Below, piece after piece: positions 11,976 through 61,426 of a DNA stretch of 64,000 bases; the first letter of the stretch is position 1, and every line of letters starts with the position of its first letter. Origin of the DNA: Mycobacterium barrassiae (GTDB lineage Bacteria; Actinomycetota; Actinomycetes; Mycobacteriales; Mycobacteriaceae). The notes below the pieces were generated by a model. The model had not been told where the DNA came from, searched no databases, and saw nothing but the letters and a program-made list of their open reading frames with translations. The stretch covers positions 124,973 through 188,972 of the forward strand of contig NZ_JACKUK010000009.1 in assembly GCF_025822765.1 (NCBI RefSeq), in the 5' to 3' direction. The position numbers and the translations under genes were made by a program.

Positions 11976-12043
11976 CCTATGGTCGAGATTGAACTGAGGG
12001 TCGTTGCCGTCGCCACAACCCTCAGTTCAATCTCGGTCATAGG
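11976..12043. repeat. Long intergenic hairpin, CTATG-CGAGATT class
   Basis: 26-nt arms at 11976-12001 and 12018-12043 with a 16-nt loop. The only non-Watson-Crick positions are two adjacent G-T pairs, which pair as wobble in RNA. The outer end reads CCTATGGTCGAGATTGAAC. It lies downstream of the kinase stop at 12062 on the minus strand. Related elements are at 20150 and 61362. Confidence 0.85.
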
Positions 12044-12061
12044 ACTCCGATAAGAGATGTC

Positions 12062-13603
12062 CTACCGCTCGTCCGAGCCGTACTCGAGCGCGGGCTCCGC
12101 CGAATCCACGCCACCCCTGCTGAGAATCGTCAACATGTCGGGTTGCACCTCGTAGCGGGCTCCGTCGGCGGGGTTGACGGCCGTGAACCCGCGCCCGGAC
12201 GGCGTCGCGTTCGACAGCTGCAGATTGGCACCGTCGCGCAGCCGCTCACCCCGGTAGTAATAGGTGCCCGGCGCCGACTCGCACACCACCGCAATCGAGT
12301 TCGTGGTCCGGATCGCCGCCGCGGGCGTACTGCCCGGATCGCAGCGCGCGGTATGGCCGACGAATCCCTGCGCATCGGTCCCGGAAACCCCCGCGATGGG
12401 TTCGGATCGCGATGTCGTCGTCGTGGTGGTGGGCGTGCTTGTAGTTGTAGAAGGTGAGTCCGACGTCGTCGTCTCCGGCGACGATGACGGGGTCAGCGAG
12501 GTCGTCGGCACCGCCAGCCTGGTCTGCGGCGTCGACCCACCACCGGGGTCGCCGAACACCAGCACCGCGGCGAGCACCACCGCCGCGGTGAACATCACCA
12601 CCGTCGCGGCGACCAGCGCCACTTGCGCCGGGCCGAACCGCGACTTCTTGACGGGCGGGGCGGGCGGAACCGGCGGGGGCAGGTACCCCGTCCGCGCCGG
12701 ATTCGGATCGGCGGCGGAGAACTGCCTGGTGTGGCTCGGCGGAACCGGCACCGGCGGAGGCGTCGAGTCCGACAGCGCCGCCGCCGCGGCCTTGGCCAGT
12801 TCACCGGCCGTCGTATACCTCTCGGCGGGCTGCTTGGCCATGCCCTTGGCGATGACGTCGTCGAACCCGCGGTTGATGCCCCGACGCATGATGCTCGGCC
12901 GCGGCGGCGGGGAGAACATGTGCGCGCCCATCATCTGCCGCACGTCGCCGGCCTCGAACGGCGAACGGCCGGTGAGGCACTCGTAGAGCAGGCATGTCAA
13001 CGAGTACACGTCGGCGGCCGGTCCCCCACGCGCGCCGCTGAACCGCTCGGCGGCCATGTAGGCGCATGAGCCGATGACCAGTCCAGTACTCGTCACGCTC
13101 GCCTCGCCGCCACCGTGCGCGATGCCGAAGTCGACGAGGTAGGCGAAATCCTCCCGCGTGAGCAGCACGTTCTCCGGCTTGATGTCGCGGTGCACGAGCC
13201 CGTTGGCATGCGCCGCGTCCAGCGCGGCCGCGACCTGACTGATGATCGACACCGCACGCGTCGGCGGGAGCGGTCCCTTGGCGAGCAGCTCGTCCTTCAG
13301 GCTCGCACCCTCGACCAGCCGCATGTCGATATAGAGGACGCCGTCGATGTCGCCGAAGTCGTGCACCGGGATGACGTGCGGCTCCTGCAAGCGCGCGGCG
13401 ACGCGGGACTCACGCCGGAAGCGCTGCTGAAAGCTCTGGTCGGCGGCTACCTCGGTGCGAAGCAGCTTGATCGCCACCATGCGCTCCCTGACGGTGTCGT
13501 AGGCGCGGTACACCTCGCCCATTCCGCCGACACCGATCAGCGACTGGAGCTCATACGGCCCGAATTGCGTACCCACGCGAGTCCCGCCGTTCGGGGAGCC
13601 CAT
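12062..13603 (-). CDS. Transmembrane Ser/Thr protein kinase, PknE-like
   Basis: A 513-residue receptor kinase. Kinase domain residues about 15-275: glycine loop IGVGGMGEVY, Lys46, H138-R-D140 with KPEN, D158-F-G160. The P+1 motif is A184-A-E186 instead of APE, a mild departure. A Pro-rich juxtamembrane linker precedes one membrane helix at about 325-350, then a Ser/Thr-rich stalk (runs of TTT) and an extracellular domain of about 110 residues with two Cys. The N-terminus (GTQFGPYEL) and the HDFGDIDG segment resemble PknE/PknD of M. tuberculosis. Neighbours give no substrate hint. The long hairpin at 11976-12043 follows its stop. Confidence 0.9.
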   Translation of the reverse strand: MGSPNGGTRVGTQFGPYELQSLIGVGGMGEVYRAYDTVRERMVAIKLLRTEVAADQSFQQRFRRESRVAARLQEPHVIPVHDFGDIDGVLYIDMRLVEGASLKDELLAKGPLPPTRAVSIISQVAAALDAAHANGLVHRDIKPENVLLTREDFAYLVDFGIAHGGGEASVTSTGLVIGSCAYMAAERFSGARGGPAADVYSLTCLLYECLTGRSPFEAGDVRQMMGAHMFSPPPRPSIMRRGINRGFDDVIAKGMAKQPAERYTTAGELAKAAAAALSDSTPPPVPVPPSHTRQFSAADPNPARTGYLPPPVPPAPPVKKSRFGPAQVALVAATVVMFTAAVVLAAVLVFGDPGGGSTPQTRLAVPTTSLTPSSSPETTTSDSPSTTTSTPTTTTTTSRSEPIAGVSGTDAQGFVGHTARCDPGSTPAAAIRTTNSIAVVCESAPGTYYYRGERLRDGANLQLSNATPSGRGFTAVNPADGARYEVQPDMLTILSRGGVDSAEPALEYGSDER

Positions 13604-13939
13604 ATGAATCCTTCCGTCCTCTCGATAAGTGCGTCCAACCGAGTTCCCGCGACAACCTGATCCTTAACCGCTCCCCGCAGCGGTAATATGTGGCGCACCG
13701 ATGCGACCACCGAAAGCAAAGCAGCACAACCGATTTGCTCAGTCGCGAGTGTACAAAGGACCGCGGGACTTTGCGAACGGCGCTTTTCGGGGTGGCCGGC
13801 CGGCGGCGAGCCCGTTGACCTGCGACGCCACGGACTGGTCGCACGTCACAAATTCATATGCATAACGTTCGCCGTGACGGGGAACACCCTCTTGTCCGGC
13901 GTCATGTCGGTATCCGAACAATGCGCGACAGGAACCACG
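13604..13939. other. Intergenic region between divergent kinase and methyltransferase genes
   Basis: 336 nt without a convincing gene. It must hold the promoters of the minus-strand kinase and the plus-strand methyltransferase. An inverted repeat ACCGCT-N6-AGCGGT lies at 13667-13684. An open frame continues upstream of the methyltransferase start, but its predicted residues look non-coding. Confidence 0.5.
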
Positions 13940-14869
13940 GTGGCTGATTCACGTACCAAGACCCCTACCACTGCGCAATCGAAATGGTTGTCTGAGTCGG
14001 CGGGGAAGATCCACGGCTCCGACAAGGACGAGGTGCAGTTCCACTACGACATCTCCAACGACTTCTTCAAGCTGTGGCAGGACCCGACCCAGACCTACAG
14101 CTGTGCGTACTTCGAGCGTGACGACATGTCGCTCGAGGAAGCGCAGATGGCCAAGGTCGACCTGTCGCTGGGCAAGTTGGGCCTCCAACCGGGGATGACG
14201 CTGCTGGATATCGGGTGCGGCTGGGGCTCGACGATCATGCGGGCGGTCGAGAAGTACGACGTCAACGTCATCGGGCTGACGCTCTCGGAGAACCAGAAGC
14301 GGCACATCGAGGAGCACTGGTTCGCCAACTCGACGAGCACCCGCAAGATGGAGGTCCGGCTGCAGCCGTGGGAGGAGTTCGACGAGCCTGTCGATCGCAT
14401 CGTCTCCATCGGCGCGTTCGAGCACTTCGGCTTCGGCAAGTACCCCGACTACTTCAAGAAGACGTACAACCTCATGCCCGACGACGGCGTGATGCTGCTA
14501 CACACGATCATCATTCCGAGCGACGAAGAGGTGAAAGCCAAGAAGCTGCCGCTGCTCATGTCGACAGTGCGCTTCATCAAGTTCATCCTCGACGAGATCT
14601 ATCCCGGCGGTCGCCTACCGCTCGCAGCGCAAGTCGTCGAGCAGGCCAGCAAGGCCGGCTTCACCGTCACCCGCGAACAACATCTGCAGCCGCACTACGT
14701 CCGCACCCTCGACACGTGGGCGGCAAACCTGGAGTCGAACAAGGACGAGGCGATCGCGATCACGTCCGTCGAGGTCTACGAGCGCTTTCATAAATACCTC
14801 ACTGGATGCGCCGACCTGTTCCGCAACGGATACACCGACGTGTGCCAATTCACTTGCGAGAAGCAATAA
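13940..14869 (+). CDS. Mycolic acid cyclopropane synthase-type SAM methyltransferase (paralogue 1)
   Basis: A 309-residue member of the CmaA/MmaA/PcaA family, which modifies meromycolate double bonds on the acyl carrier using S-adenosylmethionine. Seen: [17 protein letters not shown] at the N-terminus, SCAYFER with the conserved Cys, the SAM loop [10 protein letters not shown] (residues about 88-97), GAFEHFG with the bicarbonate-ligand Glu, and MLLHTI with the conserved His, so the catalytic set is complete. The GTG at 13940 was chosen (product begins [15 protein letters not shown] upstream); an ATG at 13904 is the alternative. The 60-residue longer frame upstream is not family-like. It is followed 24 bp later by a second paralogue. 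Whether it cyclopropanates or methylates cannot be read from the sequence. Confidence 0.88.
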
Positions 14870-14893
14870 TTCATTTAGTAGGGTTAAGCGGTA

Positions 14894-15778
14894 ATGACTG
14901 ACATGAAGTCCCACCCGATTGACATGCAGCCTCATTTCGAGGAAGTCCAGGCCCACTACGACCTGTCAGACGACTTCTTCGGACTCTTCCAGGACCCATC
15001 GCGGACCTACAGCTGCGCCTACTTCGAACGCGAGGACATGACCCTCGCCGAAGCACAGCTCGCCAAAATCGATCTCGCACTGGGCAAACTCGGACTCGAG
15101 CCGGGCATGACCCTGCTCGACGTCGGGTGCGGCTGGGGTTCGGTGATGAAACGCGCGGTAGAGAAATTTGACGTCAACGTCATCGGTCTCACGCTTAGCA
15201 ACAACCAGACCCGTTACTGCAAACAGCTTTTCGAGACTCTCGACACCGAACGCACCACGCGCGTCGAGCTGCACGGGTGGGAACAGTTCGACGAGCCCGT
15301 CGACCGCATCGTCAGCATCGAGGCATTCGAGGCCTTCCCCAAGGAGCGCTACGGCGCGTTCTTCGAGACGTGCTACCGGCTCCTGCCCGACGGTGGCCGC
15401 CTGGTGCTGCAGACGATCATGGGTCATCCGCTCAAGCGCTGGCCCGACCTCGGCATCCCGATCGTCATGTCCGATCTGAAGTTCATGCGGTTCATCGCCA
15501 AGGAGATCTTCCCGGGCGGGTCGATCCCGTGCGACGAGGACATCATCGGGCTCTCGGGCGAGGCCGGCTTCGCGGTGCAGCATTTCGAAACGCTGAACCC
15601 GCACTATGTGCGAACGCTGGAGACCTGGGCCAAGAACCTCGAGGCTGCGCACGACGAAGCCGTCGCCGCCACGTCCGAAGAGGTCTATCAGCGCTACATG
15701 AAGTACCTGGTGGGGTGCGCCGACTTCTTCCAGCGCGGCATCAGCGAGCTGGGCCAGTTCACGCTGACCAAGGGCTGA
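14894..15778 (+). CDS. Mycolic acid cyclopropane synthase-type SAM methyltransferase (paralogue 2, UmaA-like, altered active site)
   Basis: A 294-residue paralogue of the preceding gene. The family frame is clear: HFEEVQAHYDLSDDFF, Cys41 in [11 protein letters not shown] loop LLDVGCGWGS at 75-84, C-terminus QFTLTKG. Relative to CmaA1 numbering (offset 6), the bicarbonate ligands Cys41 and Glu146 are kept, but the usual EHFG reads E146-A-F-P and the ligand His is Gln173 (VLQTIM). EAFEAF is shared with UmaA (Rv0469), but UmaA as I recall it keeps the His. The change may mark a methyltransferase rather than a cyclopropanating activity, or a weak enzyme. It is co-oriented with paralogue 1 and convergent with the ketosynthase. 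Confidence 0.88.
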   Translation: MTDMKSHPIDMQPHFEEVQAHYDLSDDFFGLFQDPSRTYSCAYFEREDMTLAEAQLAKIDLALGKLGLEPGMTLLDVGCGWGSVMKRAVEKFDVNVIGLTLSNNQTRYCKQLFETLDTERTTRVELHGWEQFDEPVDRIVSIEAFEAFPKERYGAFFETCYRLLPDGGRLVLQTIMGHPLKRWPDLGIPIVMSDLKFMRFIAKEIFPGGSIPCDEDIIGLSGEAGFAVQHFETLNPHYVRTLETWAKNLEAAHDEAVAATSEEVYQRYMKYLVGCADFFQRGISELGQFTLTKG

Positions 15779-15784
15779 TCCGCG

Positions 15785-17035
15785 TCAGGGCGCGCCGAAC
15801 ACCAGCGCGACGTTGTTGCCGCCCAGGCCGAATGAATCGGACACCGCGTACCGATAGTCGCCGTGGCGCGGCCGGTCGGCCACCACGTCGAGATCGATCT
15901 CGGGATCGAGCGTCTTCAGATTCAGCGTCGGCGGAATGACGCCGTCGCGCAGCGCCTGCACCGTCAGCACCGCCTCCACCGCACCCGCAGCGCCCAACGA
16001 ATGACCCAGCGCCGCCTTCGGCGCGTATACCGCCGCCTGGTGGTCGCCGAGTGCGCGGCGGATCGCGCGGGCCTCGGCGAGGTCACCGTGCTTGGTGCCG
16101 GTGGCGTGCGCGTTGATGTGGTCGATGTCCGACGGCGTCACCCCGGCGAGCTCGATCGCCCGGCTGATGGCGTCGCCCGCCCGCTCACCGCTGGGGTCCG
16201 GATCCACCACGTCGAAGCCGTCGGACGTGATGGCCGCACCCATCAGCCGAGCCAGGATCGGGGCGCCGCGCGCCTTGGCGTGCTCTTCGGTCTCGATGAG
16301 CATCAGCGCGCCGGCCTCACCGAGGACCATGCCGTCGCGGTCGGCGTCGAACGGGCGGCACGCGGCCGCGGGGTCGTCGTTGTTGGATGCCAGCCAGCCG
16401 AGATTGGTGAACGACGCGACCGGCACCGCCTCGATGTAGTTCTCGACGCCGCCGCAGATCGCCATGTCGGCTTCGCCGAGGATGATGCCCTGCCAGGCCT
16501 CCGCGATGGCGGCCGCACCCGACGCGTCCGCCAGCACCGGCGATGTGATGCCCGCCTTGGCCTGGAAGTCCAGGCCCACCGAGGCGGCGGGCGCATTGGG
16601 CATGTGCATCTGCACGGCGAGCGGATTGGCCGCGCGCACGCCACGTTTCTTGAAGTCGTCGTACAACACGATCATCGCCTCGGTGCTGGCCAGCGCGAGC
16701 CCGATCGAGACGAGGAGGCGACGGGTGTCGACTTCCGGGGATCCGGCGGCTTCCCACAGGCGGCGGCCGAGTACCCGCGACATCTTCTGCATGTACGACA
16801 ACCGGCGCAGCTCGACGCGGTTGAGGTGCTGGTCGAAATCCTCGCGGAGTTGTCCGCCGATCCGGATCGGCAGGTTGTATTCGTCGACGAACGGCGTATC
16901 CAGTCTGCGAATGCCGCTCTGCCCCTCCAGCAATTGCTGCCAGGTGTCCTCGGCATTGGTGGCCAGGGCATTGCTGGATGCCAGCGCGGTAACGACGACA
17001 TCAGGAAGGCCGCCGCCGGTCGTTCTACTGGCCAT
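15785..17035 (-). CDS. KasA/KasB-like beta-ketoacyl-ACP synthase lacking the catalytic cysteine
   Basis: A 416-residue protein aligning end to end with mycobacterial KasA/KasB (DRDGMVLGEAGALMLIETEE, APKAALGHSLGA, PPTLNLKTLDPEIDLDVVA). Both catalytic His are present (His310 in NAHATGT, His345 in GHSLGA). At the nucleophile the KasA pattern PVSACSSGSEA reads PVLADASGAAA, so Cys is replaced by Asp170 (codon at 16526-16528, reverse strand). The protein cannot condense by the normal acyl-Cys route; it may be a chain-length-factor-like or decarboxylating partner. It lies convergent with two mycolate methyltransferases, so a role in meromycolate synthesis is likely but inferred. Confidence 0.85.
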   Translation of the reverse strand: MASRTTGGGLPDVVVTALASSNALATNAEDTWQQLLEGQSGIRRLDTPFVDEYNLPIRIGGQLREDFDQHLNRVELRRLSYMQKMSRVLGRRLWEAAGSPEVDTRRLLVSIGLALASTEAMIVLYDDFKKRGVRAANPLAVQMHMPNAPAASVGLDFQAKAGITSPVLADASGAAAIAEAWQGIILGEADMAICGGVENYIEAVPVASFTNLGWLASNNDDPAAACRPFDADRDGMVLGEAGALMLIETEEHAKARGAPILARLMGAAITSDGFDVVDPDPSGERAGDAISRAIELAGVTPSDIDHINAHATGTKHGDLAEARAIRRALGDHQAAVYAPKAALGHSLGAAGAVEAVLTVQALRDGVIPPTLNLKTLDPEIDLDVVADRPRHGDYRYAVSDSFGLGGNNVALVFGAP

Positions 17036-17341
17036 GTGTCACCAAAGTCCTTTACTCAGCTAGCGGACCTGGTCGTTATTTCCCAATCTACGACGGAATA
17101 TGCACCGGTGCAGCAACTTTATCAACTGGCTTGGCGCCGGGGGCCCGACGGATAGCGACCTTCAGGCGCTCGACGAGCACGGGTGAACGATGAAGACGAC
17201 GGCGATCCGATTTGCTAGACCAGCACGGTAACCACGTCGAAACCTGGCGCGGTCAAGCGGCTACTGCAGATCGAGTTGCTGAAACTGCAAAACTGGGCGA
17301 GCGCACCGAATTCGTCAGGCAGGCACAGATGTTCGCGTGCG
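17036..17341. other. Intergenic region upstream of the ketosynthase
   Basis: 306 nt with no convincing gene; it holds the ketosynthase promoter. A perfect 12-nt palindrome TGCACCGGTGCA at 17101-17112 is the only symmetric element noticed. A 66-codon open frame from 17212 has no RBS and runs antisense into the next gene. Confidence 0.5.
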
Positions 17342-17839
17342 CTAGACGACTGAGCCGTTGGCGCGCAGGCGTCCTGACCAAGTGGCACTTTCGGTCTTTG
17401 CGACGGTCATGACGCCGCGGGCGATGTCCCAGAGCTTGCTGTCGCGGTCCTCGAGAGACGCCGACAGGCCCGCCGCGCAGCGCATCACCGTCGCACCGAG
17501 GTTCTGCGACGTCATATAGGGCACCACGAGCAGCTTCGCGCAGGCGGTGCGGCCCTCAACCATCATCAGGCGGGGACGTCGCGGACCGGGTCGGTCGATC
17601 ACGCGGGCGCCGGTGACGATCGACTCGAGATCGACGGGCCCCTCGGTCGGCGACCAGTTGATCCCGATGTCGACGATCTCGCCGAGCGGGGCGTGCAGGA
17701 CGCCGATGAGTTCGGGCAGCTCCGAGGCGACCGAGGCGGAGTGCGGCCACCACGCTCCGTCGATGTCGGCGCCCAACTGTCGGGCGAGCAGAAGCCGTAC
17801 GGGGCGGGCCACACGCCGCGTCCCCGACAGGCCGTTCAC
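17342..17839 (-). CDS. DUF5994 family protein
   Basis: A 165-residue cytosolic protein with the DUF5994 look: an N-terminal RVARPVRLLLARQLGADIDG followed by a WWPHSAS motif and paired aromatics. Function of the family is unknown. The start is the GTG at 17837-17839, which shares GTGA with the TGA of the small gene upstream, indicating translational coupling. No catalytic residues can be named. Confidence 0.75.
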   Translation of the reverse strand: MNGLSGTRRVARPVRLLLARQLGADIDGAWWPHSASVASELPELIGVLHAPLGEIVDIGINWSPTEGPVDLESIVTGARVIDRPGPRRPRLMMVEGRTACAKLLVVPYMTSQNLGATVMRCAAGLSASLEDRDSKLWDIARGVMTVAKTESATWSGRLRANGSVV

Positions 17840-17976: not shown

Positions 17977-18160
17977 AGGACACGTCCTTAAAACGTACGG
18001 GTACAGCCCATACATACGAATTGGGCGAACGGAAATCCGTCCGCAAGCTGATCGCGGGAGCAACGTTGGAAGAATGCTGGGCGAAACGGCCTACACCCAA
18101 TTTACCCGATCAGCGGCAAGCGCAGTGACGCGAGTCGATTTTCGACCCTAGAACGCGCAA

Positions 18161-18190
18161 TGGGCTGGCGGGAAACTTCCCACCAGCCCA
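18161..18190 (-). terminator. Terminator hairpin of the cold-shock gene
   Basis: 14-nt arms TGGGCTGGCGGGAA / TTCCCACCAGCCCA with one wobble pair and a 2-nt loop, starting 17 nt after the cold-shock stop on the minus strand. There is no T-tract. Confidence 0.7.
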
Positions 18191-18206
18191 CGCGACGAAG
18201 ATCTGG

Positions 18207-18410
18207 TTAAACCGCGGTCACACCGACTGCCTGCGGACCCTTGGCCCCCTGCTCGACGGTGAATTCAACTCGCTGGTTCTCCTCGAGCGACTTGTAGCCG
18301 CTGCCCTGGATTGCGCTGAAGTGAACGAATACGTCCTCTGCGCCGCCATCGGGAGCGATGAAGCCGAAGCCCTTATCGCTGTTGAACCATTTCACAGTTC
18401 CCTGCGTCAT
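18207..18410 (-). CDS. cspA: Cold-shock protein (CspA family)
   Basis: A 67-residue single cold-shock domain, full length: [17 protein letters not shown] with RNP1 (KGFGFI) and RNP2 (VFVHF). It binds single-stranded RNA and DNA as a chaperone. The sequence is typical of the mycobacterial CspA (Rv3648c). A leader of up to about 150 nt precedes it, as is common for cold-shock messages, and a strong hairpin follows. Confidence 0.95.
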
Positions 18411-18733
18411 ACTTTTCTACTTCTCTCATTGTGATTCGGATGTCGGAAAACACCCAGGTAGACAGTAACACGGCGGGCCGATAAAACGTATTCGCTTGTG
18501 CCGGAATGTTTTTCATGCGGCCTTGAGGGCGGCAATGCGCGCTCTGTCGATTTGCCTTGAGTAGCAACGCTTCTGCAACGACCGACTTCGCGAACGCCCG
18601 CCGGTGGTTGCGACACGGTCACGGAAGCGCATCCATCCGGGTATCGGTAGTCACAAAAACCTCACCAGTCACTATCGTCACATGGGCCAGTTCAAGACGT
18701 CTTCTGCGACGTCGTGCCCCTGAAAGGTGTGAC
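18411..18733. other. Divergent intergenic region between cspA and the DUF4185 gene
   Basis: 323 nt without a gene. The cspA side probably contains its long 5' UTR; the AT-richer stretch near 18411-18440 lies directly upstream of its ATG. I found no strong palindrome or riboswitch-like fold by eye. Confidence 0.5.
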
Positions 18734-20092
18734 ATGTCGCCCCGACTTCTCATCGCATCGGTATCGGTTGCCTCGGCGACCGCACTGACCGTAGCGATGG
18801 GTGTCCTGCCGTCCGCGTTCGCCGCGCCGTGCACGGGTGCCGCCGCGGCCATCCAGCCGCCCGCAGGGCCGGGCGCCGGCGAGACTCCGGATCTGCCGGG
18901 CGACGGTCGGCCGCGAGGACAGCGACCGACCGGCACCAATGACGGCGCACCACTGCCGAGTCTGGGGCAGATCCCGGGCCTGTCCCGCACCGGACAGATC
19001 GACCAGCGAGCCGCGGTCGTGCCCGACCCGGCGCGACCGGTTCCCGATGCCAACCCCGTCGCACCACCGGCACCACCGGCGCCGTCACCGCCGGGCACGT
19101 CGCTCGTCGGCTGGGTGACCGGACCGGAGAGCCCGAACGACACGGTCAAGCGGTTCGCCATCACCGGCACCGATCTCGGCATCATGTGGGACAACGGCGC
19201 CGGCGAGGTGTTGATGGCCTTCGGCGACACCTACGGGTATTGCGGTGTGCACGGCCAACAGTGGCGCTACAACGTGTTGATGCGCAGCCGCGACGGCGCG
19301 TTGAACAATACGGTCGCCGCGACGAGCTCACCCCTTTGGGCCCAAGGACTTTCGAAGCAGATCATCAACAGCATCAGGTTCGCGCCGACGGAGAAGGGCA
19401 TCATCCCGACGGCGGGCATCTCGGTCGGCGGCAAGCAGTACATCAACTTCATGTCGATCAAGAGCTGGGACAGTGACGGCCGGTGGACGACGAACTTCTC
19501 GGCGATCGCGGTCTCGCCCGACAACGGTGAGCGCTGGGGCGTGTACCCCGACTCGGTGCGCCCGGCCGCGCCGGGCAACGTGCAGCGGGCGCGCTATGTG
19601 CCGGGTAACGAGAACTTCCAGCAGGGGGCGTTCCTGAAACCGGGGCCTGGAGACCCCTACATCTATTCCTTCGGCACCCCTTCGGGGCGTGGGGGTGCCG
19701 CATACGTATCGCGGGTGCTGCCGGCCGGCATCCCCGACCCGCGCAGGTACGAGTACTGGAATTCGGACTCGAACTCCTGGGTGCCGGGCGATCCATCGGC
19801 GGCGACGCCGGTGATCCCTGGGCCCGTGAGTGAGATGTCGGCGCAGTTCAACACCTATCTCAAGCAGTACCTGGTGCTCTACGGCAACGGCGCCAACGAC
19901 ATGGTGATGCGAACAGCACCCGCGCCGCAGGGCCCGTGGAGTCCGGAACGGCTGGTCGTGCCGTCGATGCAGTTCCCCGGCGGTATCTATGCGCCGTTCC
20001 TGCACCCGTGGTCGACGGGTAAAGAGCTGTACTACAACGTGTCGCTGTGGTCGGCGTACAACGTGATGCTGATGAAAACCGTGCTGCCGTAG
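18734..20092 (+). CDS. Secreted DUF4185 domain protein
   Basis: The ATG at 18734 (AAAGGTGT upstream) gives 452 residues with a signal peptide (1-32, cut after SAFA), a Pro-rich linker to about residue 120, and a DUF4185 beta-propeller-like domain (LGIMWDNGAGEVLMAFGDTYG, repeated YNVLMRS and NVMLMKT elements). Family members are found in mycobacteria (Rv3707c type) and some act on cell-wall glycans such as arabinan; the specific activity here is not provable. A hairpin followed by TTTGTTT terminates it. Confidence 0.85.
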   Translation: MSPRLLIASVSVASATALTVAMGVLPSAFAAPCTGAAAAIQPPAGPGAGETPDLPGDGRPRGQRPTGTNDGAPLPSLGQIPGLSRTGQIDQRAAVVPDPARPVPDANPVAPPAPPAPSPPGTSLVGWVTGPESPNDTVKRFAITGTDLGIMWDNGAGEVLMAFGDTYGYCGVHGQQWRYNVLMRSRDGALNNTVAATSSPLWAQGLSKQIINSIRFAPTEKGIIPTAGISVGGKQYINFMSIKSWDSDGRWTTNFSAIAVSPDNGERWGVYPDSVRPAAPGNVQRARYVPGNENFQQGAFLKPGPGDPYIYSFGTPSGRGGAAYVSRVLPAGIPDPRRYEYWNSDSNSWVPGDPSAATPVIPGPVSEMSAQFNTYLKQYLVLYGNGANDMVMRTAPAPQGPWSPERLVVPSMQFPGGIYAPFLHPWSTGKELYYNVSLWSAYNVMLMKTVLP

Positions 20093-20104: not shown

Positions 20105-20143
20105 CTATGCCCGGTGTCGGGGAGGCGCCGGGCATAGTTTGTT
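20105..20143 (+). terminator. Intrinsic terminator after the DUF4185 gene
   Basis: CTATGCCCGGTG / GCGCCGGGCATAG stem with a short GC-rich loop, followed by TTTGTTT, 12 nt after the stop. Confidence 0.75.
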
Positions 20144-20149
20144 TCGACC

Positions 20150-20232
20150 CCTATGGGCGAGATTCACACCATGGTTGTTCGGACATGGTTGCTCGGACCT
20201 GCCACAACCGTGGTGTGAATCTCGCGCATAGG
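20150..20232. repeat. Long intergenic hairpin, CTATG-CGAGATT class
   Basis: 28-nt arms at 20150-20177 and 20205-20232 with a 27-nt loop; one mismatch and one wobble. The outer part CCTATGGGCGAGATT matches the elements at 11976 and 61362, while the inner stem (CACACCATGGTTG) is different yet still self-complementary. Confidence 0.85.
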
Positions 20233-20258
20233 AGTGAGTGAGTACATATCGTGCAGTC

Positions 20259-20975
20259 ATGGACGTAGTTCCGCTCGGCGGGCATCTGTCCCGGCGGCGA
20301 CTGTTGCAGCTGGGAACGGCCGGACTGGCCGTGGCCTGCCTGAAGCCACCCGCGGCAGCGGCGGCGCCGGCGGTGAACCCTGCCTCGCGGGTGGTGCTGT
20401 GCCGCGACGCGTGGGGCGCGCAACCTCCCCGCCCCGGCGGACAGCCCAATCCCCTCAACCGCATGACGCTGCATCACACCGAGGTGATCCTGGGCGACAA
20501 CTCCAACGCACCGACCCGACTCCGCCAGCATCAGCATTACCACCAGGACACGCAGGGCTGGATCGACATCGCCTATCACTACAGCGTGGACCGCAACGGG
20601 AACATCTACCAGCTGCGCAGCCCGCATCTCGTCGGCGATACCGCGACCACCTACGACCCGGCGGGTCACTTCCTGGTGCTCTGCGAAGGCGACTTCGACA
20701 AGGAAGCGGTGTCGGAGGACCAGCTCAACGGCGCGGCTCTGGTATTCGCCTGGGCTGCAGACCAATTCGGTATACCCACCGACACGCTCGCGGGCCATCG
20801 CGATTTTGCTCCCGAAACCACATGCCCCGGCGCCAGCCTCTACGAGCACGTCGCGTCCGGCGACCTCCAGAACCGCGTGGACAGCCTGCTGGCCGCCGGC
20901 CCGGTGAATCTCCCGACGATCTGCGGCCCCGAGGCGGACGCGATCGTCAGCGAGATCGAAGCGGGGCTGCGCTAG
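20259..20975 (+). CDS. Tat-exported peptidoglycan amidase / PGRP-fold protein
   Basis: A 238-residue protein with a twin-arginine-like signal (LSRRRLLQLG, hydrophobic stretch, AAAAAP). The mature part is an amidase_2/PGRP domain: the first zinc-ligand His in MTLHHTE, a second in the FGI..AGHRDF segment and Cys in ETTCPG. These cleave the N-acetylmuramoyl-L-alanine bond. An in-frame GTG at 20238 sits at the edge of the preceding hairpin, so the ATG at 20259 is preferred without certainty. The next gene lies on the other strand. Confidence 0.82.
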   Translation: MDVVPLGGHLSRRRLLQLGTAGLAVACLKPPAAAAAPAVNPASRVVLCRDAWGAQPPRPGGQPNPLNRMTLHHTEVILGDNSNAPTRLRQHQHYHQDTQGWIDIAYHYSVDRNGNIYQLRSPHLVGDTATTYDPAGHFLVLCEGDFDKEAVSEDQLNGAALVFAWAADQFGIPTDTLAGHRDFAPETTCPGASLYEHVASGDLQNRVDSLLAAGPVNLPTICGPEADAIVSEIEAGLR

Positions 20976-20979
20976 CCAT

Positions 20980-21041
20980 CGCCGAACGTGCGTCTACGGC
21001 GATATTTCGCAACGATTTTCGCAGTAGGCGCACGCTCGGCG
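20980..21041. repeat. Intergenic hairpin (GCCGAACGTGCG class)
   Basis: 18-nt arms at 20980-20997 and 21024-21041 with one mismatch and one wobble, 26-nt loop, beginning 5 nt after the amidase stop and between convergent genes. It shares the GCTCGGC end with 11924-11963. Confidence 0.75.
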
Positions 21042-21058
21042 AGGAGGGCAGGCCGCGC

Positions 21059-40121: not shown

Positions 40122-40133
40122 AATCCCCGGCGT

Positions 40134-40189
40134 CGAGACTGCTAACAGATCGCGTTTCGGCGTTGATTCGCGATCTGTGCGCAGTTTCG
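40134..40189. repeat. Intergenic hairpin, CGAGACTG-ACAGATCGCG class
   Basis: 21-nt arms at 40134-40154 and 40169-40189 with a two-base mismatch and one wobble, 14-nt loop, 12 nt after the LuxR stop. The arm sequence matches the perfect element at 46590-46647. Confidence 0.8.
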
Positions 40190-40334
40190 GTGTGCCCAGC
40201 TAGGCGTCTGCATCATTTGACCCATAGGGCATGTAGCAAACACATCTTTCTCCCGATGTTCGGCCCTATATGAGGCCCATAGCTTTGTGATCAGCCGGTT
40301 CACCCCGGAACAGACCACCGAAAGCAGGGACATC

Positions 40335-46566: not shown

Positions 46567-46589
46567 CCGCGCACTGATCGCTGGAGGCA

Positions 46590-46647
46590 CCGAGACTGCG
46601 CACAGATCGCGGATCAGCGCGAAAACGCGATCTGTGCGCAGTCTCGG
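46590..46647. repeat. Perfect intergenic hairpin, CGAGACTG-ACAGATCGCG class
   Basis: 22-nt arms at 46590-46611 and 46626-46647, perfectly complementary, 14-nt loop. The arm contains CCGAGACTGCGCACAG followed by ATCGCG. It starts 24 nt after the permease stop and ends before the CAAG repeats. Confidence 0.9.
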
Positions 46648-46659
46648 CGTCGACGGTTC

Positions 46660-55412: not shown

Positions 55413-55461
55413 TCAATCAAGGCTCAAGGGCGATTTCCCCTCCAACACCCTTGACCCGGCC

Positions 55462-55499
55462 GGCAACTAAGTGCGACACTCATGTCGCATTTAGTTGCC
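55462..55499. promoter_or_regulatory. 38-nt palindrome upstream of the AveC-like gene
   Basis: 16-nt arms GGCAACTAAGTGCGAC / GTCGCATTTAGTTGCC, one wobble, 6-nt centre, 21 nt before the AveC-like GTG. It overlaps the expected promoter and contains TGCGAC-N6-GTCGCA. A TetR-type operator is likely. Confidence 0.7.
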
Positions 55500-55520
55500 T
55501 CAACCCGGCGAGGAGTCCGA

Positions 55521-56483
55521 GTGTCAGCGCTACTGTCAGACACCAGTTCACGCACGGGGGCTCGTCGCGGCCTGACGTATTTCTGGCCCGTGCTCGGCGC
55601 GGCTTCGCTGCTTCTCGCGTGCTACTCGTTGGGGCGGTGGCTGGCCGGCGGGGTGTCGTCGGTGCCACCCGGCGACGACCCGATGCCCACTGCGCAGTTG
55701 GTGCTCATGCATGCGCTCGAGTGGATTCAATTCGCCGCCTTTCTGGCGATCGTCGGATGGGTTGTGGTCAGACCGCTGATCCAGCGACGCCCGCTCGGGT
55801 TCGACGGGCTGTTCGTGATCGCCGCGTTTCTGCTCAACTTCTGGGATGTGATGGACAACTACTGGTCCTTCTCATTTCAGTACAACGCGCATCACCTGAA
55901 CGTCGGCTCATGGGGCGGGTACATCCCCGGATGGCAGAGCCCACAGCCTGAATTATGGTCTGTACCAATCGGCTTCGTATTTGGCGCGTACACGTGGGCG
56001 TTCTTCCTGGCTGTGCGCTCCGGATGCGCATTGTTGACCTACCTGCAGAACCGATATCCCACGTGGGGGCCGCTGCGCGCGTTCGGCGTGGTGTTCGTTT
56101 CGAACATGTTCATCGAGGCGATCTCGGAAAATGTCTACCTCCGTATTGGCGCCATCGCGAACATCAGACCTTATGAGGCACTGACACTTTGGGATGGCAC
56201 CCAACACGCCTGGCCCGTCTACAACCCGATTCTGTTCTCTCTCGTGTGGACCGCGCTGACCGCATTCCGTTGGTACCGGGATAAGGACGGGCTGACGTTC
56301 GTGGAGAGAGGCCTGCCCGCGACGCGCGGCGGACAGCAACCATCAACGATCCTTCGATTCTTCGCGATATTCGCGTTCCTCGAAGTCACGTACCTCCTCC
56401 TCTATTTCCTCCCGTGGAATCTATTCGCCGCCATGCGCACAGCCCCACCGAACGTTTTTCCGTCGTACTTCCCGGTGCCGTAA
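55521..56483 (+). CDS. AveC-like (spirocyclase family) membrane protein
   Basis: A 320-residue protein with about seven or eight membrane helices. GTG at 55521 with AGGAG 5 nt upstream is preferred to an ATG at 55482. FWDVMDNYWSFSFQYN, PELWSVPIGFVFGAY and NPILFSLVWTALTAFRWYRDKDG match the AveC family, named after the avermectin spiroketal cyclase. Mycobacteria carry many such proteins with unknown roles. It is convergent with the molybdopterin oxidoreductase. Confidence 0.75.
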   Translation: MSALLSDTSSRTGARRGLTYFWPVLGAASLLLACYSLGRWLAGGVSSVPPGDDPMPTAQLVLMHALEWIQFAAFLAIVGWVVVRPLIQRRPLGFDGLFVIAAFLLNFWDVMDNYWSFSFQYNAHHLNVGSWGGYIPGWQSPQPELWSVPIGFVFGAYTWAFFLAVRSGCALLTYLQNRYPTWGPLRAFGVVFVSNMFIEAISENVYLRIGAIANIRPYEALTLWDGTQHAWPVYNPILFSLVWTALTAFRWYRDKDGLTFVERGLPATRGGQQPSTILRFFAIFAFLEVTYLLLYFLPWNLFAAMRTAPPNVFPSYFPVP

Positions 56484-56499
56484 CCGGACGGCGATTGCG

Positions 56500-58671
56500 C
56501 TAGGTCGTCGGTGCTTCTGCCGCCTGCGGCAGTCGGTCGACTCGCACCGGTACCGAGTTCATTGCCGCGTTACCAGACAGAATGTCGTGTAGCTCTGGAT
56601 CATTGATGTCGTTCGCGCTGGCACCGGCCTTCGATGCGGCAAGTCGCCATCCGACTCCAGGCCGGTCGTGGCCGAATCCGTGCGGAATGGAGACCACTCC
56701 GCGCCGGATCGCATCGGTGACCTGCAGAGGAACTTCTATTGACCCGATCACGGAGCTGACGCGTACCACTTCACCGTCGTTGAGCCCGCGCTGTGCTGCG
56801 TCGTCGGGGTGCAGCATCGCGGTACAGCGATCGCCGCCCTTCATCAGCCGCGGCGAATTGTGCATCCAGGAGTTGTTGCTCCGAAGTTGACGCCGACCGA
56901 TCAACGTGAGGTCGTAGCCACCTTGACGGCTCGCGGCGTCCTCCTCGGCTCGCCTGGCCAGCTTGGCCGCCTCTTCGACGAGCCGCGGGGCGGCCAACTT
57001 GATGCGACGGTCCGGGGTGCCCAGATCATCTGGGAGGCAGGACTCCAGCGCGCCGAGGTCGATGCCGTGCGGCGCTTCTTTGATGCGGCGAAACGTCAAC
57101 CCGCGTCGGGGCCCCGCACGCAAAACACCGCGAGGACTGGTGAGAATGGCCAAGTCGACCAGCCGCTTCGGCGACATGCGCCCCACCGTGTTGGCGATCA
57201 GCCGCCCGCGCAGCCCATGACTCACGCGCTGCGTCAGAGCGTTGAGTATTTCCCAGTCTTCAAGTCCATCTGGGTCTTTCGGAACTGCAGCCGGGCTGTA
57301 ACGGACATGATTGCGTACCGACATCGCCGCAAAAACCAGGTCCAGGTCATCGCGCTGCAGCGCCGACACCGGCGGCAAGATCACATTCGCATGGCGCGAT
57401 GTCTCATTGACGTACATGTCTACGGCAACAAAGAAGTCGAGCCGCTCCAACGCGGCATCGAGCCGCCGCCCGCCGGGCGCCGACAGCACGGGGTTACCCG
57501 CGTGGACAATCAGGGCCCGCACTCGTCCGGCGTTGATCTGATCGGGAAGCGTCGCAACCGGGAATTCACCGTTCACGACCGGCCGGCCCGTAACGCGGTC
57601 GCGCAGCATCGGATTGATGCCGATGACACCCTTACGCGTACCGAGACGTCCTGCCGCTACAAGATCTACGGGTGGTTTGGCGAACATCGACCCACCAGGA
57701 GAATCGAGTCGACCGGTGATGACGTTCAGCGCCAGGATGAGCCAGTGTGTGACACTGCCGGTGCGCGTCTGACACACCCCGACGCGGCCGTAGGCGACGG
57801 GCGCAGTGGCGGCGGCGAATTCGCGAGCGATCCGTTGAATGGTCGCAGCATCGACGCCGGCGTACTCACCGGCGCGTGCGGGCGGCCACTCGTCGGCAAT
57901 TCGGCGTACCTCATCGCTGCCATCAGTGAAAGCCGCGAGGCGTCCAGGAGACGTCAGGCCTTCTTTGAACAACACATGGATGATCCCGAGCAGGAGGAAC
58001 GGGTCTCCGCCCGGTCGCACAGCGATGTGCTCCGTTGCCAAATCGGCAGTTTCGGTTCGACGCGGGTCCACCACTACCACGCGCCCGCCCCGGTTCATCA
58101 CGTCGCGCAGACGCCTGCGCACCCCGGGCGCGGTCATCGCTGAACCGTTGGACGCCGCCGGATTCGCGCCGAGCATCAGCATGTAGTCGATCCGATCGAT
58201 ATCGGGCACGGCGAAAACTGCGGCGTTGCCTAACACTTCGCCGTTGACAACCTGCTGCGGACTTTGGTCCAGCGATGAGGCAGAACAGTTGCTGCTGGTG
58301 CGCAGGGCCGTGCGCATCGCGAAGAACGCGTAGAAACCCCAATTGTGTGCGCCGGGATTGCCGAGATATGTTCCGACGGCGTCAGGTCCGTAGCGTCGCT
58401 GCACCGTGCGAATGCCAGACTCTACGAGCGCGAAGGCATCGCCCCAACTGATGCGTTCCCAACGGTCACCGACCCGGCGGACCGGGTGGCGCAGCCGGTC
58501 AGGATCTTCATAGAGATCGGCCAGCGCCGGCGCTTTCGGACACACATAGCCGCGAGAGAACTCGTCCTCCTTGTCACCGGCGATACGCAACACCGCGTCG
58601 CCCTCGACTTCAACCGTGATTCCGCAGTGCGCCTCGCACAGATTGCACGTGCGCAGGATCGTCAGCGACAT
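56500..58671 (-). CDS. Molybdopterin-dependent oxidoreductase (formate dehydrogenase/nitrate reductase superfamily)
   Basis: A 723-residue catalytic subunit. Cys9-x2-Cys12-x3-Cys16-x27-Cys44 is the N-terminal [4Fe-4S] pattern. The molybdopterin domains follow (GANPAASNGSAMTAPGV, VVVDPRRTETADLA, VHAGNPVLSAPGG), and the C-terminal dinucleotide-binding region has MLHPDDAAQRGLNDGEVVRV. No Tat signal, so it is cytosolic. The Mo ligand cannot be set from sequence (SSNCSASSLDQ region). No partner subunits adjoin it. ATG 58671 has no Shine-Dalgarno. It is divergent from a tetR. Confidence 0.88.
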   Translation of the reverse strand: MSLTILRTCNLCEAHCGITVEVEGDAVLRIAGDKEDEFSRGYVCPKAPALADLYEDPDRLRHPVRRVGDRWERISWGDAFALVESGIRTVQRRYGPDAVGTYLGNPGAHNWGFYAFFAMRTALRTSSNCSASSLDQSPQQVVNGEVLGNAAVFAVPDIDRIDYMLMLGANPAASNGSAMTAPGVRRRLRDVMNRGGRVVVVDPRRTETADLATEHIAVRPGGDPFLLLGIIHVLFKEGLTSPGRLAAFTDGSDEVRRIADEWPPARAGEYAGVDAATIQRIAREFAAATAPVAYGRVGVCQTRTGSVTHWLILALNVITGRLDSPGGSMFAKPPVDLVAAGRLGTRKGVIGINPMLRDRVTGRPVVNGEFPVATLPDQINAGRVRALIVHAGNPVLSAPGGRRLDAALERLDFFVAVDMYVNETSRHANVILPPVSALQRDDLDLVFAAMSVRNHVRYSPAAVPKDPDGLEDWEILNALTQRVSHGLRGRLIANTVGRMSPKRLVDLAILTSPRGVLRAGPRRGLTFRRIKEAPHGIDLGALESCLPDDLGTPDRRIKLAAPRLVEEAAKLARRAEEDAASRQGGYDLTLIGRRQLRSNNSWMHNSPRLMKGGDRCTAMLHPDDAAQRGLNDGEVVRVSSVIGSIEVPLQVTDAIRRGVVSIPHGFGHDRPGVGWRLAASKAGASANDINDPELHDILSGNAAMNSVPVRVDRLPQAAEAPTT

Positions 58672-58770
58672 AGCGATCACAATAGCAATTTGCTACGCAA
58701 TTGAGTGGCAAAACTACAAACCCTTCGTAGTATGCGTACCGTATTTGCGCCGCGATGATGCGAAGTCGCG

Positions 58771-58788
58771 GTTCACGAGAATGTGAAC
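58771..58788. promoter_or_regulatory. Palindrome in the oxidoreductase/tetR divergent region
   Basis: GTTCAC-gagaat-GTGAAC, perfect 6-nt arms, 62 nt before the tetR start. It is a candidate site for that TetR, controlling both genes. Confidence 0.5.
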
Positions 58789-58849
58789 TGTCCCGCTCAT
58801 GAGGACGACGGTCATCTCTCGCGCCACTCTTCTGCCCTAATCTCGAAGG

Positions 58850-59398
58850 GTGCAAAGGGAAAAGGCCGAAGTTGCGCGTCGCGCAGACCACCGAGCGACA
58901 CGAGCGCGCGTCGTCACGGCTGCCGCCCGCACCTTCAACCGTGACCGTGACGCTCCCATGGACCGCGTCGCCGAGGTCGCCGGAGTCCACCGCGCGACCT
59001 TGTACCGACACTTCCCGACACGACGCGAACTGCTCGAGGCAGTGCTCGACGACGCCCTGATCGAAGGGCGCCGGATCGTCGAGATGGCTGCCGCGCTAGC
59101 CCCGAACGAGGCTTCAGTTCATGAATTCGCCTCGCACGCAATAAAATTTGGGGACAAGTACGCGTTTCTGATCGACACCCCTACGCTGTCGGCAGCTGGG
59201 CCCGACCCGATCGGACTGTCGCGATTGATGGAGAGCTGGCAGCAGGCGGGATTGCTTCGTGACGATGTGAACCCAGTATGGCTGGCCCGCAATTTCATCG
59301 TGCTCACTCAAACGACGATCGCCGTTCGCGAAGTCACCGCCGGTGAACAGCGTGAGAGCCTGCTCACACGGTTCTTTCTTCATGGGGCGGCCCGCTGA
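58850..59398 (+). CDS. TetR family transcriptional regulator
   Basis: A 182-residue regulator starting at [30 protein letters not shown] at about residues 40-62 (written here in pieces: [15 protein letters not shown]). C-terminal ligand domain is helical and ends HGAAR. It is divergent from the molybdopterin oxidoreductase, which is the likely target together with itself. Confidence 0.88.
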
Positions 59399-59506
59399 CG
59401 ACCAGGGTGCGCTTCATAGGCGCACTGCCCCGGTTCAGCACCGCATCAGAGCGTCATCCGCGCGTCGCCGGGTACATGCCTCGAACATCACGCGGTCATC
59501 CATAAC

Positions 59507-59540
59507 GCAGTCAGGCCCGCTGAAAGGCGGGCTTGACTGC
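59507..59540 (-). terminator. Terminator of tRNA-Tyr
   Basis: 14-nt arms GCAGTCAGGCCCGC / GCGGGCTTGACTGC with one wobble and a 6-nt loop, 8 nt beyond the 3' end of the tRNA on the minus strand. Confidence 0.75.
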
Positions 59541-59548
59541 GAACATGC

Positions 59549-59634
59549 TGGTGGCAGGTGCAGGATTCGAACCTGCGTAGGCGTTAGCCGACGGATTTAC
59601 AGTCCGCTCCCATTGGCCGCTCGGGCAACCTGCC
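59549..59634 (-). tRNA. tRNA-Tyr (anticodon GTA)
   Basis: 86 nt including an encoded CCA. Acceptor stem GGCAGGT/ACCTGCC with discriminator A, anticodon GTA (reverse complement of TAC at 59598-59600) in the loop CTGTAAA, T-arm GGTTCGAATCC, and a long variable arm as expected for a type II tRNA-Tyr. It lies between a tetR and yajQ. Confidence 0.97.
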
Positions 59635-59741
59635 TGGGTGCTGCACCGGCCGGGTGGCCCGGTTTGGTGCGACTAGCAGGGTACAACGAGGATGGTGCTA
59701 AGACGAAAACGCACCTGACATATCGAGGAGGACAGAGTCCA

Positions 59742-60233
59742 ATGGCGGATTCATCGTTCGACATCGTCAGCAAGGTCGACCGCCAGGAGGTCGACAACGC
59801 GCTGAACCAGGCGGCCAAGGAGCTGTCCACCCGCTACGACTTCCGCGGGACCGACACCTCAATCGCCTGGCAGGGCGAGGAGACCGTCGTCATCACGTCC
59901 TCGACCGAGGAGCGCGTCAAGGCCGCGATCGACGTCTTCAAGGAGAAGCTCGTCCGCCGGGACATCTCCATGAAGGCATTCGACGTCGGCGAGCCGCAGG
60001 CCTCGGGCAAGACCTACAAGGTCAGCGGCCAGATCAAGCAGGGCATCAGCACCGAGCACGCCAAGAAGATCACCAAGATCATCCGCGACGAGGGCCCCAA
60101 GGGCGTCAAGACCCAGATCCAGGGCGACGAGATCCGGGTCTCCTCGAAGAAACGTGACGATCTGCAGGCCGTCATCGCCCTGCTGAAGGGTTCCGACCTC
60201 GAGGTGGCTCTGCAGTTCGTCAACTACCGCTGA
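59742..60233 (+). CDS. YajQ-family nucleotide-binding protein (DUF520)
   Basis: A 163-residue protein with the YajQ pattern throughout: [57 protein letters not shown]. Family members bind nucleotides, and some bind cyclic di-GMP or RNA. The ATG has GAGGAGGA upstream. It is the orthologue of Rv0566c and lies 70 bp before gpsA. Confidence 0.93.
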
Positions 60234-60303
60234 CCGGGCGTAGTAAGCGGCGGCGTTCCCGAATCGGCCCTCGTTTCCAGCCTCCGGTCATACCCTGATC
60301 GGC

Positions 60304-61329
60304 ATGGCACCTTCGCAACGCGAACCCAAAGTCGTCGTCCTCGGTGGAGGCTCCTGGGGCACCACCGTGGCGTCCATCTGCGCCCGGCGCGGCCCGACGC
60401 TGCAATGGGTGCGCTCCGAGGAGACCGCCAACGACATCAACGAGCGCCATCGCAACAGCAAGTACCTCGGCAACGACGTCGAGCTGGCACTGACGCTGCA
60501 GGCCACCACCGACTTCTCCGAGGCCGCCGAGTGCGCCGACGTCATCGTGATGGGTGTGCCGTCGCACGGCTTCCGGGCGGTGCTCACCGAGCTGGCCAAG
60601 GAACTACGGCCGTGGGTGCCGGTCGTCTCGCTGGTGAAGGGCCTCGAGCAGGGCACCAACTACCGGATGAGCCAAATCGTCAACGAGGTGCTGCCCGGCC
60701 ACCCGGCGGGCATCCTGGCCGGACCGAACATCGCGCGCGAGGTGGCCGAGGGATACGCCGCCGCGGCGGTGCTCGCGATGCCCGACCAGAGTCTGGCGTC
60801 GAACCTCGGAAACCTGTTCCGCACCAGACGGTTTAGGACCTACACCACCGACGACGTGGTCGGGGTGGAGATGGCCGGCGCGCTCAAGAACGTGTACGCG
60901 ATCGCGGTCGGCATGGGGTATTCCCTTGGCATCGGCGAGAACACGCGCGCTATGGTGATCGCCCGCGCCCTGCGGGAGATGTCGAAGCTCGGCGAGGCGA
61001 TGGGTGGCCACCGCGATACATTCGCCGGTCTCGCCGGCATGGGCGACCTCATCGTCACGTGCACCAGCCAGCGCAGCCGCAACCGCCACGTCGGCGAACA
61101 GCTCGGCTCCGGTAAGACGATCGAGGAAATCATCTCGTCGATGAATCAGGTCGCCGAGGGCGTCAAGGCCGCGAGCGTCATCATGGAATTCGCTGACAAG
61201 TACGGCATCTCGATGCCGATCGCCAGAGAGGTCGATGGCGTCGTCAACCACGGTTCCACCGTCGAGCAGGCCTACCGCGGCCTCATGCGCGAGGAACCCG
61301 GGCACGAGGTGCACGGGGCAGGGTTCTGA
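60304..61329 (+). CDS. gpsA: NAD(P)-dependent glycerol-3-phosphate dehydrogenase
   Basis: A 341-residue enzyme that makes sn-glycerol 3-phosphate from dihydroxyacetone phosphate for phospholipids. Rossmann motif G14-x-G16-x-x-G19 (GGGSWGT), GPNIAREVAEGY, and the catalytic Lys in EMAGALKNVYAIA. The C-terminal helical domain (GLAGMGDLIVTC) is present. Orthologue of Rv0564c (gpdA1). A hairpin follows at 61362. Confidence 0.95.
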   Translation: MAPSQREPKVVVLGGGSWGTTVASICARRGPTLQWVRSEETANDINERHRNSKYLGNDVELALTLQATTDFSEAAECADVIVMGVPSHGFRAVLTELAKELRPWVPVVSLVKGLEQGTNYRMSQIVNEVLPGHPAGILAGPNIAREVAEGYAAAAVLAMPDQSLASNLGNLFRTRRFRTYTTDDVVGVEMAGALKNVYAIAVGMGYSLGIGENTRAMVIARALREMSKLGEAMGGHRDTFAGLAGMGDLIVTCTSQRSRNRHVGEQLGSGKTIEEIISSMNQVAEGVKAASVIMEFADKYGISMPIAREVDGVVNHGSTVEQAYRGLMREEPGHEVHGAGF

Positions 61330-61361
61330 CCTCGAGGGGCTGGGCACCTACTTTTTGAGTG

Positions 61362-61426
61362 CTATGTCCGAGATTGAACACAGGGCTGTGCGAGGCCAAC
61401 GACCGTCGGTTCAATCTCGGTCATAG
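61362..61426. repeat. Long intergenic hairpin, CTATG-CGAGATT class
   Basis: 18-nt arms at 61362-61379 and 61409-61426 with one mismatch, 29-nt loop. The arm CTATGTCCGAGATTGAAC matches the element at 11976. It lies between convergent gpsA and the secreted-protein gene. Confidence 0.85.

Follow-up and report, generated by a model that had tools for sequence, protein, structure and literature searches.

What are the long palindromes that follow gene stops in this stretch of the Mycobacterium barrassiae genome, and what could they be doing there? The stretch (64,000 nucleotides (nt) of contig NZ_JACKUK010000009.1, called the window below) holds three that an initial annotation had picked out, and the letters and coordinates match its description. 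We call them H1, H2 and H3 and assign them to a family of palindromic 3′-end elements that spans the genus Mycobacterium; its members would serve as U-less transcript 3′-end signals in both directions and would spread by a route that does not involve a Y1 transposase of this genome. We give this reading an even chance. The bit scores below refer to R1, a covariance model built from 31 elements.

11976..12043, no strand assigned: H1, palindrome CCTATGGTCGAGATTGAACTGAGGG...CCCTCAGTTCAATCTCGGTCATAGG, recognized as an inverted repeat, by folding and by R1 (73.3 bits)
20150..20232, no strand assigned: H2, palindrome of the GATTCACACC arm class, recognized as an inverted repeat, by folding and by R1 (59 bits)
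61362..61426, no strand assigned: H3, palindrome between the convergent genes gpsA (+) and 61448-61990 (-), R1 61.2 bits

Three hairpins at gene ends

H1-H3 are real, strong and far from chance. When the inverted repeats of the window were ranked, the 20 pairs had 20147-20235 in first place, 11976-12043 in second and 61362-61426 in ninth. RNA folding gave z-scores of -11.5 and -12.3 for the two strands of H1, -9.3 for H2 (+ strand only) and -5.2 and -5.3 for the two strands of H3, and no shuffle was as good. At zero mismatches the core CTATGNNCGAGATT occurs in the window solely as the six arms of H1-H3; a tolerant search returned 32 matches, 26 of them with 2-3 mismatches, where 30.1 were expected by chance.

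The gene setting is taken from gene calling done in this analysis. H1 lies downstream of a minus-strand kinase gene (12062-13603), whose stop is 18 nt away; its gap is labelled co-directional at one threshold of the gene caller and convergent at a looser one. A strong GC-rich hairpin, kept in genome G063 (score 20.6), stands about 60 nt from H1, at 11853-11914. H2 is found 57 nt past the stop of a DUF4185 gene (which ends at 20092) and 26 nt ahead of a predicted start at 20259, and H3 lies between gpsA, whose stop (61329) is 32 nt upstream, and a convergent gene, whose stop (61448) is at a distance of 21 nt. None of the three is followed by a T-tract. Thus far the description in the annotation stands, but it had missed a separate hairpin with a T-rich tail directly upstream of H2, which is present in G063 also:

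20105..20144, + strand: ordinary terminator-like hairpin CTATGCCCGG...CCGGGCATAG with a TTTGTTT tail

No Rfam family reaches its gathering score over the hairpins in the window, and at seven further loci the matches were all sub-threshold, one of them (a miRNA model) over the L246 hairpin; a known Rfam RNA was rejected.

A family of palindromes in Mycobacterium

The annotation had claimed a multi-copy family and named a low copy number as one observation that would speak against it. This was not what was seen: genome-wide, R1 found 20 elements at E < 0.01, a lower bound, with only 150 first-look candidates scored. Nine of these, H1, H2 and H3 among them, score at least 54 bits on both strands; the other eleven, at 27-46 bits, belong mostly to other arm subfamilies, chiefly CGAAATAGCATTCCGGG and CGAGACTGC..CAGATCGCG. 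The exact core CTATGNNCGAGATT occurs 14 times in the 5.9-Mb genome, and 12 of these occurrences form six complete hairpins; one of the remaining arms pairs with a variant arm and one is alone. The reversed pattern, used as a control, gave 0 genome matches. The count of 20 refers to R1 elements, and further arm classes are not all contained in it; three such hairpins are found in the window, none among the R1 matches:

40131..40192, no strand assigned: related hairpin of arm class CGAGACTGC...CAGATCGCG, classed by sequence similarity
46586..46651, no strand assigned: related hairpin of the same CGAGACTGCGCACAGATCGCG class as the one at 40131, classed by sequence similarity
20979..21042, no strand assigned: hairpin of arm class CGAACGTGCG/CGAGCGTGCG, between convergent stops

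The kinship of the last of these to H1-H3 is one of shape and place only.

R1 was also run across the genus, where 78 of the 96 genomes sampled, M. barrassiae itself among them, have matches (E 1e-4). In an order-wide sample of 150 genomes (E 0.001), 13 of the 14 genus members are matched; so are 5 of the remaining 136 genomes, with 1-5 strand-wise matches each and a best score of 48 bits. Both surveys used stricter filters and refer to the best matches listed, and R1 was itself built from genus sequences, which bears on this genus-restricted pattern. None of 60 other genomes in the sample has the strict CTATG core, which also gave 0 matches in a genome-contig collection, where records near M. 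barrassiae may be missing. The wider core CGAGATT..AATCTCG is present in 53 of the 98 genomes of the genus, that of M. barrassiae counted among them; some of these are chance matches within genes. Since the wider core is common in the genus, the strict one was dropped as a definition of the family. A phage or plasmid origin was rejected as well: blastn of H1 against phage and plasmid records gave no match at E<=0.1, and the exact double-arm pattern was not found in viral contigs.

The placement after stops described for H1-H3 is that of most copies. The 74 copies fetched from 24 genomes are in convergent gaps (35), co-directional gaps (34), a divergent gap (1) and inside called genes (4); at least 13 of 20 arm matches were required for this set, duplicate window loci were left out, and L025, L028, L030, L031, L036, L039, L045 and L046 were omitted as chance matches by eye. 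For the 34 co-directional copies the distance on the stop side has a median of 28.5 nt (quartiles 15-48) and that to the next start a median of 63 nt. A downstream U-tract was not found in 104 flanks, which carry a mean of 1.4 T in 10 nt and a maximum of 4. The copies therefore lack the immediate U-tract of an intrinsic terminator, as the annotation had argued from three cases, and have what is described for I-shaped terminators, a hairpin with no U-tract that begins no more than about 50 nt past the stop, H2 itself being at 57 nt.

Strong hairpins in general show a similar bias. In an unbiased scan for inverted repeats (score >= 15; 81 sequences, 1.54 Mb), convergent gaps (224, together 14.0 kb) held 46 hairpins, co-directional gaps (633, 91 kb) 38 and divergent gaps (288, 79 kb) 13, and 87 were found in 1.34 Mb of coding DNA. 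Convergent gaps thus exceed divergent ones about 20-fold per kb, a figure to be read with the shortness of convergent spacers and their inclusion of the hairpins themselves, and about 4.5-fold per gap (46/224 vs 13/288).

Arms, stems and lineage-specific gains

Each arm looks like one copy of a degenerate motif, made up of CGAGATTG, a variable stretch and A-N-GGYYGT in that order, which suggests a factor that reads the sequence as well; the spacing between arms and the length of the loop vary among copies. It had been argued that the inner stems, diverged and self-complementary, reveal selection. This argument holds in part only, because the arms of a hairpin covary little or not at all when copies from the same species are compared. 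At variable positions the arm match was 438, against 427.9 (standard deviation 9.6) after arms were shuffled among same-species copies, and 321 of 2000 shuffles reached 438. The elements for this test, 58 picked by eye from the listed pattern matches, of which 52 entered, exclude matches that resembled chance as well as several copies, tandem or duplicate, from G061 and G004, and retain the near-duplicates of G089 and G101. In a second test, with outer positions in and near-duplicates out (9 of 74 dropped; 49 copies from nine genomes with three or more), identity gave z 1.25 and p 0.12, and a wobble-tolerant count gave p 0.03. It looks as though the likeness of the arms owes much to their being two instances of one degenerate motif.

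Across species, by contrast, a change in one arm tends to go with a change in the other: 77.4% of cells are paired, against 71.5% after shuffling and 32-38% after sliding, in a test that relatedness inflates. There is also a class of hairpins in which the asymmetric loop, CYACTCGNACTTTC, is conserved and the arms vary widely (L238, L240-L242, L244-L246, L134, L159, L164, L165 and others); the loop-motif pattern matched 9 of 96 genomes, and the loop's orientation to the upstream gene is mixed, 9 to 5. In 18 elements of this class, arm identity is 0.78 within copies and 0.31 when arms are shuffled between copies. A hairpin was required for entry, so that 6 of 24 loop-motif places were omitted, and 8 of the 18 came by way of the CGAGATT palindrome pattern, which partly builds in the within-copy match. 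Set against the within-species nulls, these two results indicate that subfamilies shift both arms jointly, whereas copies in the same species drift with little or no covariation. What survives of the original argument, with the caveats just given, is joint change between species and subfamilies and a constraint on the stem, described below; covariation within species does not.

The case for selection on the RNA strand is weak at best. G.U outnumbers A.C by 38:20 in co-directional copies of the family (p 0.025), and the ratio is 109:98 in the unbiased set (p 0.49). Because the bias is nominally significant in the family set only, we do not claim such selection.

The gpsA junction bears on the gain of copies. 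The GpsA protein of the window is 85-94% identical to those of 80 listed loci, nearly all labelled Mycobacterium, Mycolicibacterium or Mycobacteriaceae, with M. neglectum the closest listed (94%). A comparable junction was present at 40 of the 80 named loci, and H3 is absent from all 40. It is also absent from G063, the nearest relative found, whose kinase and DUF4185 proteins are 94% and whose GpsA is 99% identical: there, 9 nt separate the two stops, against 118 nt in M. barrassiae. Since many relatives are without H3, the simple reading is a lineage-specific gain, and the gained DNA would extend beyond the hairpin:

61334..61442, no strand assigned: approximate segment gained with H3, which also brings flanking DNA to the left and right of it; the spacer exceeds that of G063 by 109 nt

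Hairpins of other arm classes stand after gpsA in M. komossense and in the M. peregrinum/setense/septicum group. Two more junctions have clean sites in G063. That of 40131-40192 is 80 nt longer in M. barrassiae, the difference beginning right after the TGA stop, and that of 20979-21042 is 77 nt longer, beginning at the TAG stop; judged from the sequences of these two genomes, both would be gains rather than losses. The 46573-46654 junction, which holds the 46586 hairpin, is rearranged in G063, with about 1.6 kb of extra DNA.

H1 and H2, by contrast with H3, have orthologues in G063; that of H2 differs by a double change, from T-A to C-G, and by one further change without compensation. No H2 was seen at 27 other readable DUF4185 loci. 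At 27 other readable loci of the kinase gene, G061 has a hairpin of the CGAGATTG class, either an orthologue or a separate gain, and the hairpins in G108, G019 and G113 belong to other classes. This survey, done partly by eye, took 30 loci per gene from the 96 (kinase) and 95 (DUF4185) genomes matched; L263 and L290, at contig ends, were unusable, and not all of the genes need be orthologues.

Altogether, 9 of the 20 elements, including 8 of the 9 in the top tier, are orthologous to elements in G063, which has 13; the main syntenic blocks are 84-90% identical. The pairing covers loci found by R1, so a missing orthologue means none detected, except for H3, which was checked directly. In the nine pairs, changes affect 59 of 534 stem positions (11%), 24 of 78 loop positions (31%), with 23 more gapped, and 244 of 1528 flanking positions, some outer arm ends falling behind gaps in the alignments. 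Outside the seven-base core, 28 of 288 paired and 23 of 114 unpaired positions changed (p 0.007). Both sides of a pair changed in 8 cases, 3.3 being expected (p 0.0085), and 4 of the 8 are from Watson-Crick to Watson-Crick. The stems are constrained after gain, changing less than the loops.

Several other features of the window deserve mention. An Rfam match to the cspA thermoregulator at 18159-18522 (-), with 79.4 bits against a cut-off of 78, overlaps a predicted minus-strand small gene (18207-18410). At 55462-55499, upstream of a predicted gene, the arms GGCAACTAAGTGCGACA/TGTCGCATTTAGTTGCC form an almost perfect palindrome around a centre of 4 nt, which looks more like an operator than a 3′-end element. 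Two more long intergenic hairpins, of unrelated sequence, are found at 6583-6686 and 7577-7634.

Competing readings and known systems

How might such a hairpin work? Transcribed from either side, it would form a very stable U-less stem, which may be a 3′-end signal in both directions by pausing RNA polymerase or helping it to terminate, in the manner of the I-shaped terminators. Alternatively, the stem could block 3′ exonucleases and fix the ends of Rho-terminated messages. Copies would spread, sometimes carrying flanking DNA, by a route not using a Y1 transposase of the genome. A two-way U-less hairpin would fit the position of the copies, the constraint on their stems and the mycobacterial literature, and from sequence we consider that the hairpins probably help to shape where mRNAs end. 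Several observations weigh against this proposal. Many relatives have no hairpin at the same junctions, and H2 stands behind an ordinary terminator-like hairpin, so that a second one is seemingly redundant. Two of 12 further elements of the M. barrassiae genome are in gaps called divergent (3 are in convergent and 7 in co-directional gaps). In the nine orthologous pairs, 22 of 207 Watson-Crick pairs were lost through a change on one side and only 4 were swapped for another Watson-Crick pair, and the excess of G.U over A.C is absent from the unbiased set. One could go further and see a modular palindrome superfamily of mycobacteria, with an outer CGA start, a freely changing stem and conserved centres (GGYYGT..ACRRCC or CYACTCGNACTTTC), actively delivered between stops by non-REP machinery as two-way punctuation that replaces U-tract terminators; this extension we find quite doubtful.

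The main rival is that the hairpins are selfish mobile palindromes without host function, akin to repetitive extragenic palindromic (REP) sequences or miniature inverted-repeat transposable elements (MITEs), which pile up at gene ends because insertions elsewhere are purged by selection. We think it on the unlikely side, and selfish spread may be true alongside a 3′-end role. Its strength lies in the signs of mobility: lineage-specific presence with clean empty sites, species-specific arm motifs, tandem copies in G061, G004 and G079, and copies that sit with their flanks in dispersed repeats. Three G089 copies (L132, L136 and L029) share 113-245 bp, flanks included, at 94-97%, and two G061 copies are inside a 122-bp repeat (97.5%); the own-genome copies compared have the element in common and no long flanks. 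A G061 array (L154, 1539-1973) consists of four copies 118-138 bp apart with like immediate flanks. The asymmetric loop conserved in both orientations and the modest per-gap excess of convergent over divergent hairpins also agree with selfish spread. Against it, a search of the genome for the Y1 (REP-type, RAYT) transposase, PF01797, gave 0 matches at E<=0.001, with 5 of 14 control genomes positive. A dedicated RAYT was rejected on this ground; the annotation had suggested testing for a dedicated transposase, and types other than Y1 were not searched. Inspection of the empty sites by eye showed no target duplication, the gained segments bringing extra flank. As to an autonomous relative with the same ends, expected of a MITE, there is one lone exact arm in the genome, distant diverged arms not having been searched, and REP copy numbers, usually >100 per genome, compare with 20 elements in 5.9 Mb, a lower bound. 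Likewise, most top-tier copies are common to G063, stems are constrained, and the per-kb density favours convergent over divergent spacers, with the reservation on spacer length made above. Another mycobacterial hairpin family, with arms GCGAGCAGACG (L075 11028-11098, L092, L098, L104 and L113), also has several copies that are missing at the same sites in many relatives.

That the inverted motif is read as DNA, by a dimeric binding protein or as a cruciform between genes, rather than as an RNA hairpin, is improbable in our judgement. In favour of this reading, each arm varies on its own as an example of a degenerate motif in which some positions are invariant and others free (the second arm test being borderline), there is no clear RNA-strand asymmetry, and loop orientation is mixed. 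It would not readily explain the variable spacing and loop length, the rarity of single arms (12 of 14 exact arms are in exact hairpins and one pairs with a variant arm), one loop common to stems of different sequence, or the greater conservation of paired positions. Very improbable indeed is the reading as ordinary Rho-independent terminators, or as palindromes that arise by chance where GC content is high: the location after stops and the 87 chance-like inverted repeats in 1.34 Mb of coding DNA are in its favour, and opposed to it are the missing U-tract, the folding z-scores, the reversed control with zero matches and the almost genus-only matches of R1, though that model was built from genus sequences.

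In the listed titles and abstract openings on mycobacterial palindromes, terminators, stem-loops of convergent genes, REP-like repeats and Term-seq, the hairpin family as such was not found described, and a literature search by arm sequences gave unrelated titles only, among the matches listed. The nearest printed hints are two. Myt-1 of M. tuberculosis (PMC2267715) is likewise a stem-loop family, of 72 nt with 75 members (70 end to end) and predicted to be structured; it was compared by description, not sequence, and its location column is blank. The inverted pair CGAAA(N)19TTTCG of Mycobacterium (PMC5217627) resembles the CGARA start of some arms; it has a shorter spacer, is given no mechanism and was also compared by description, not sequence. 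The uptake-sequence terminator pairs of Haemophilus (PMC5217627) are similar in that both arms are copies of one motif in a gene-end hairpin, but the uptake motif has ~1300 genomic copies, whereas single arms are rare here. REP/RAYT palindromes (PMC2817692) are, like these hairpins, short, extragenic and dispersed, some in tandem, at gene ends; unlike them, they number >100, against 20 copies here, and M. barrassiae has no Y1 transposase. The family also raises the question of how such a palindrome can spread when there is no REP transposase.

The closest functional parallel would be with the I-shaped terminators (Unniraman 2001 and Ahmad 2020, as cited in PMC12288462), strong U-less hairpins about 50 nt or less past the stop in the same genus. 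According to that 2025 review, 2-4% of M. tuberculosis termination sites are canonical and ~54% Rho-dependent, and the hairpins that predominate at mycobacterial genes have no poly-U tail and lie within 50 bp of the stop. Ju 2024 (PMC10937400) reports that strong termination sites are scarce in M. tuberculosis and that 121 sites have upstream RNA hairpins without a conserved motif in the 3′ flank. The review presents the ending of mycobacterial transcripts as disputed, canonical terminators being scarce and U-less hairpins being claimed by some and doubted by others. I-shaped terminators are described there by shape, whereas the hairpins here share motifs, fall into subfamilies and show lineage-specific gains, their part in termination being putative. 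If many U-less hairpins are repeated elements that are gained and then kept, with empty sites in sister species, the dispute can be put to a direct test, in which one junction is compared between genomes that have the hairpin and genomes that lack it.

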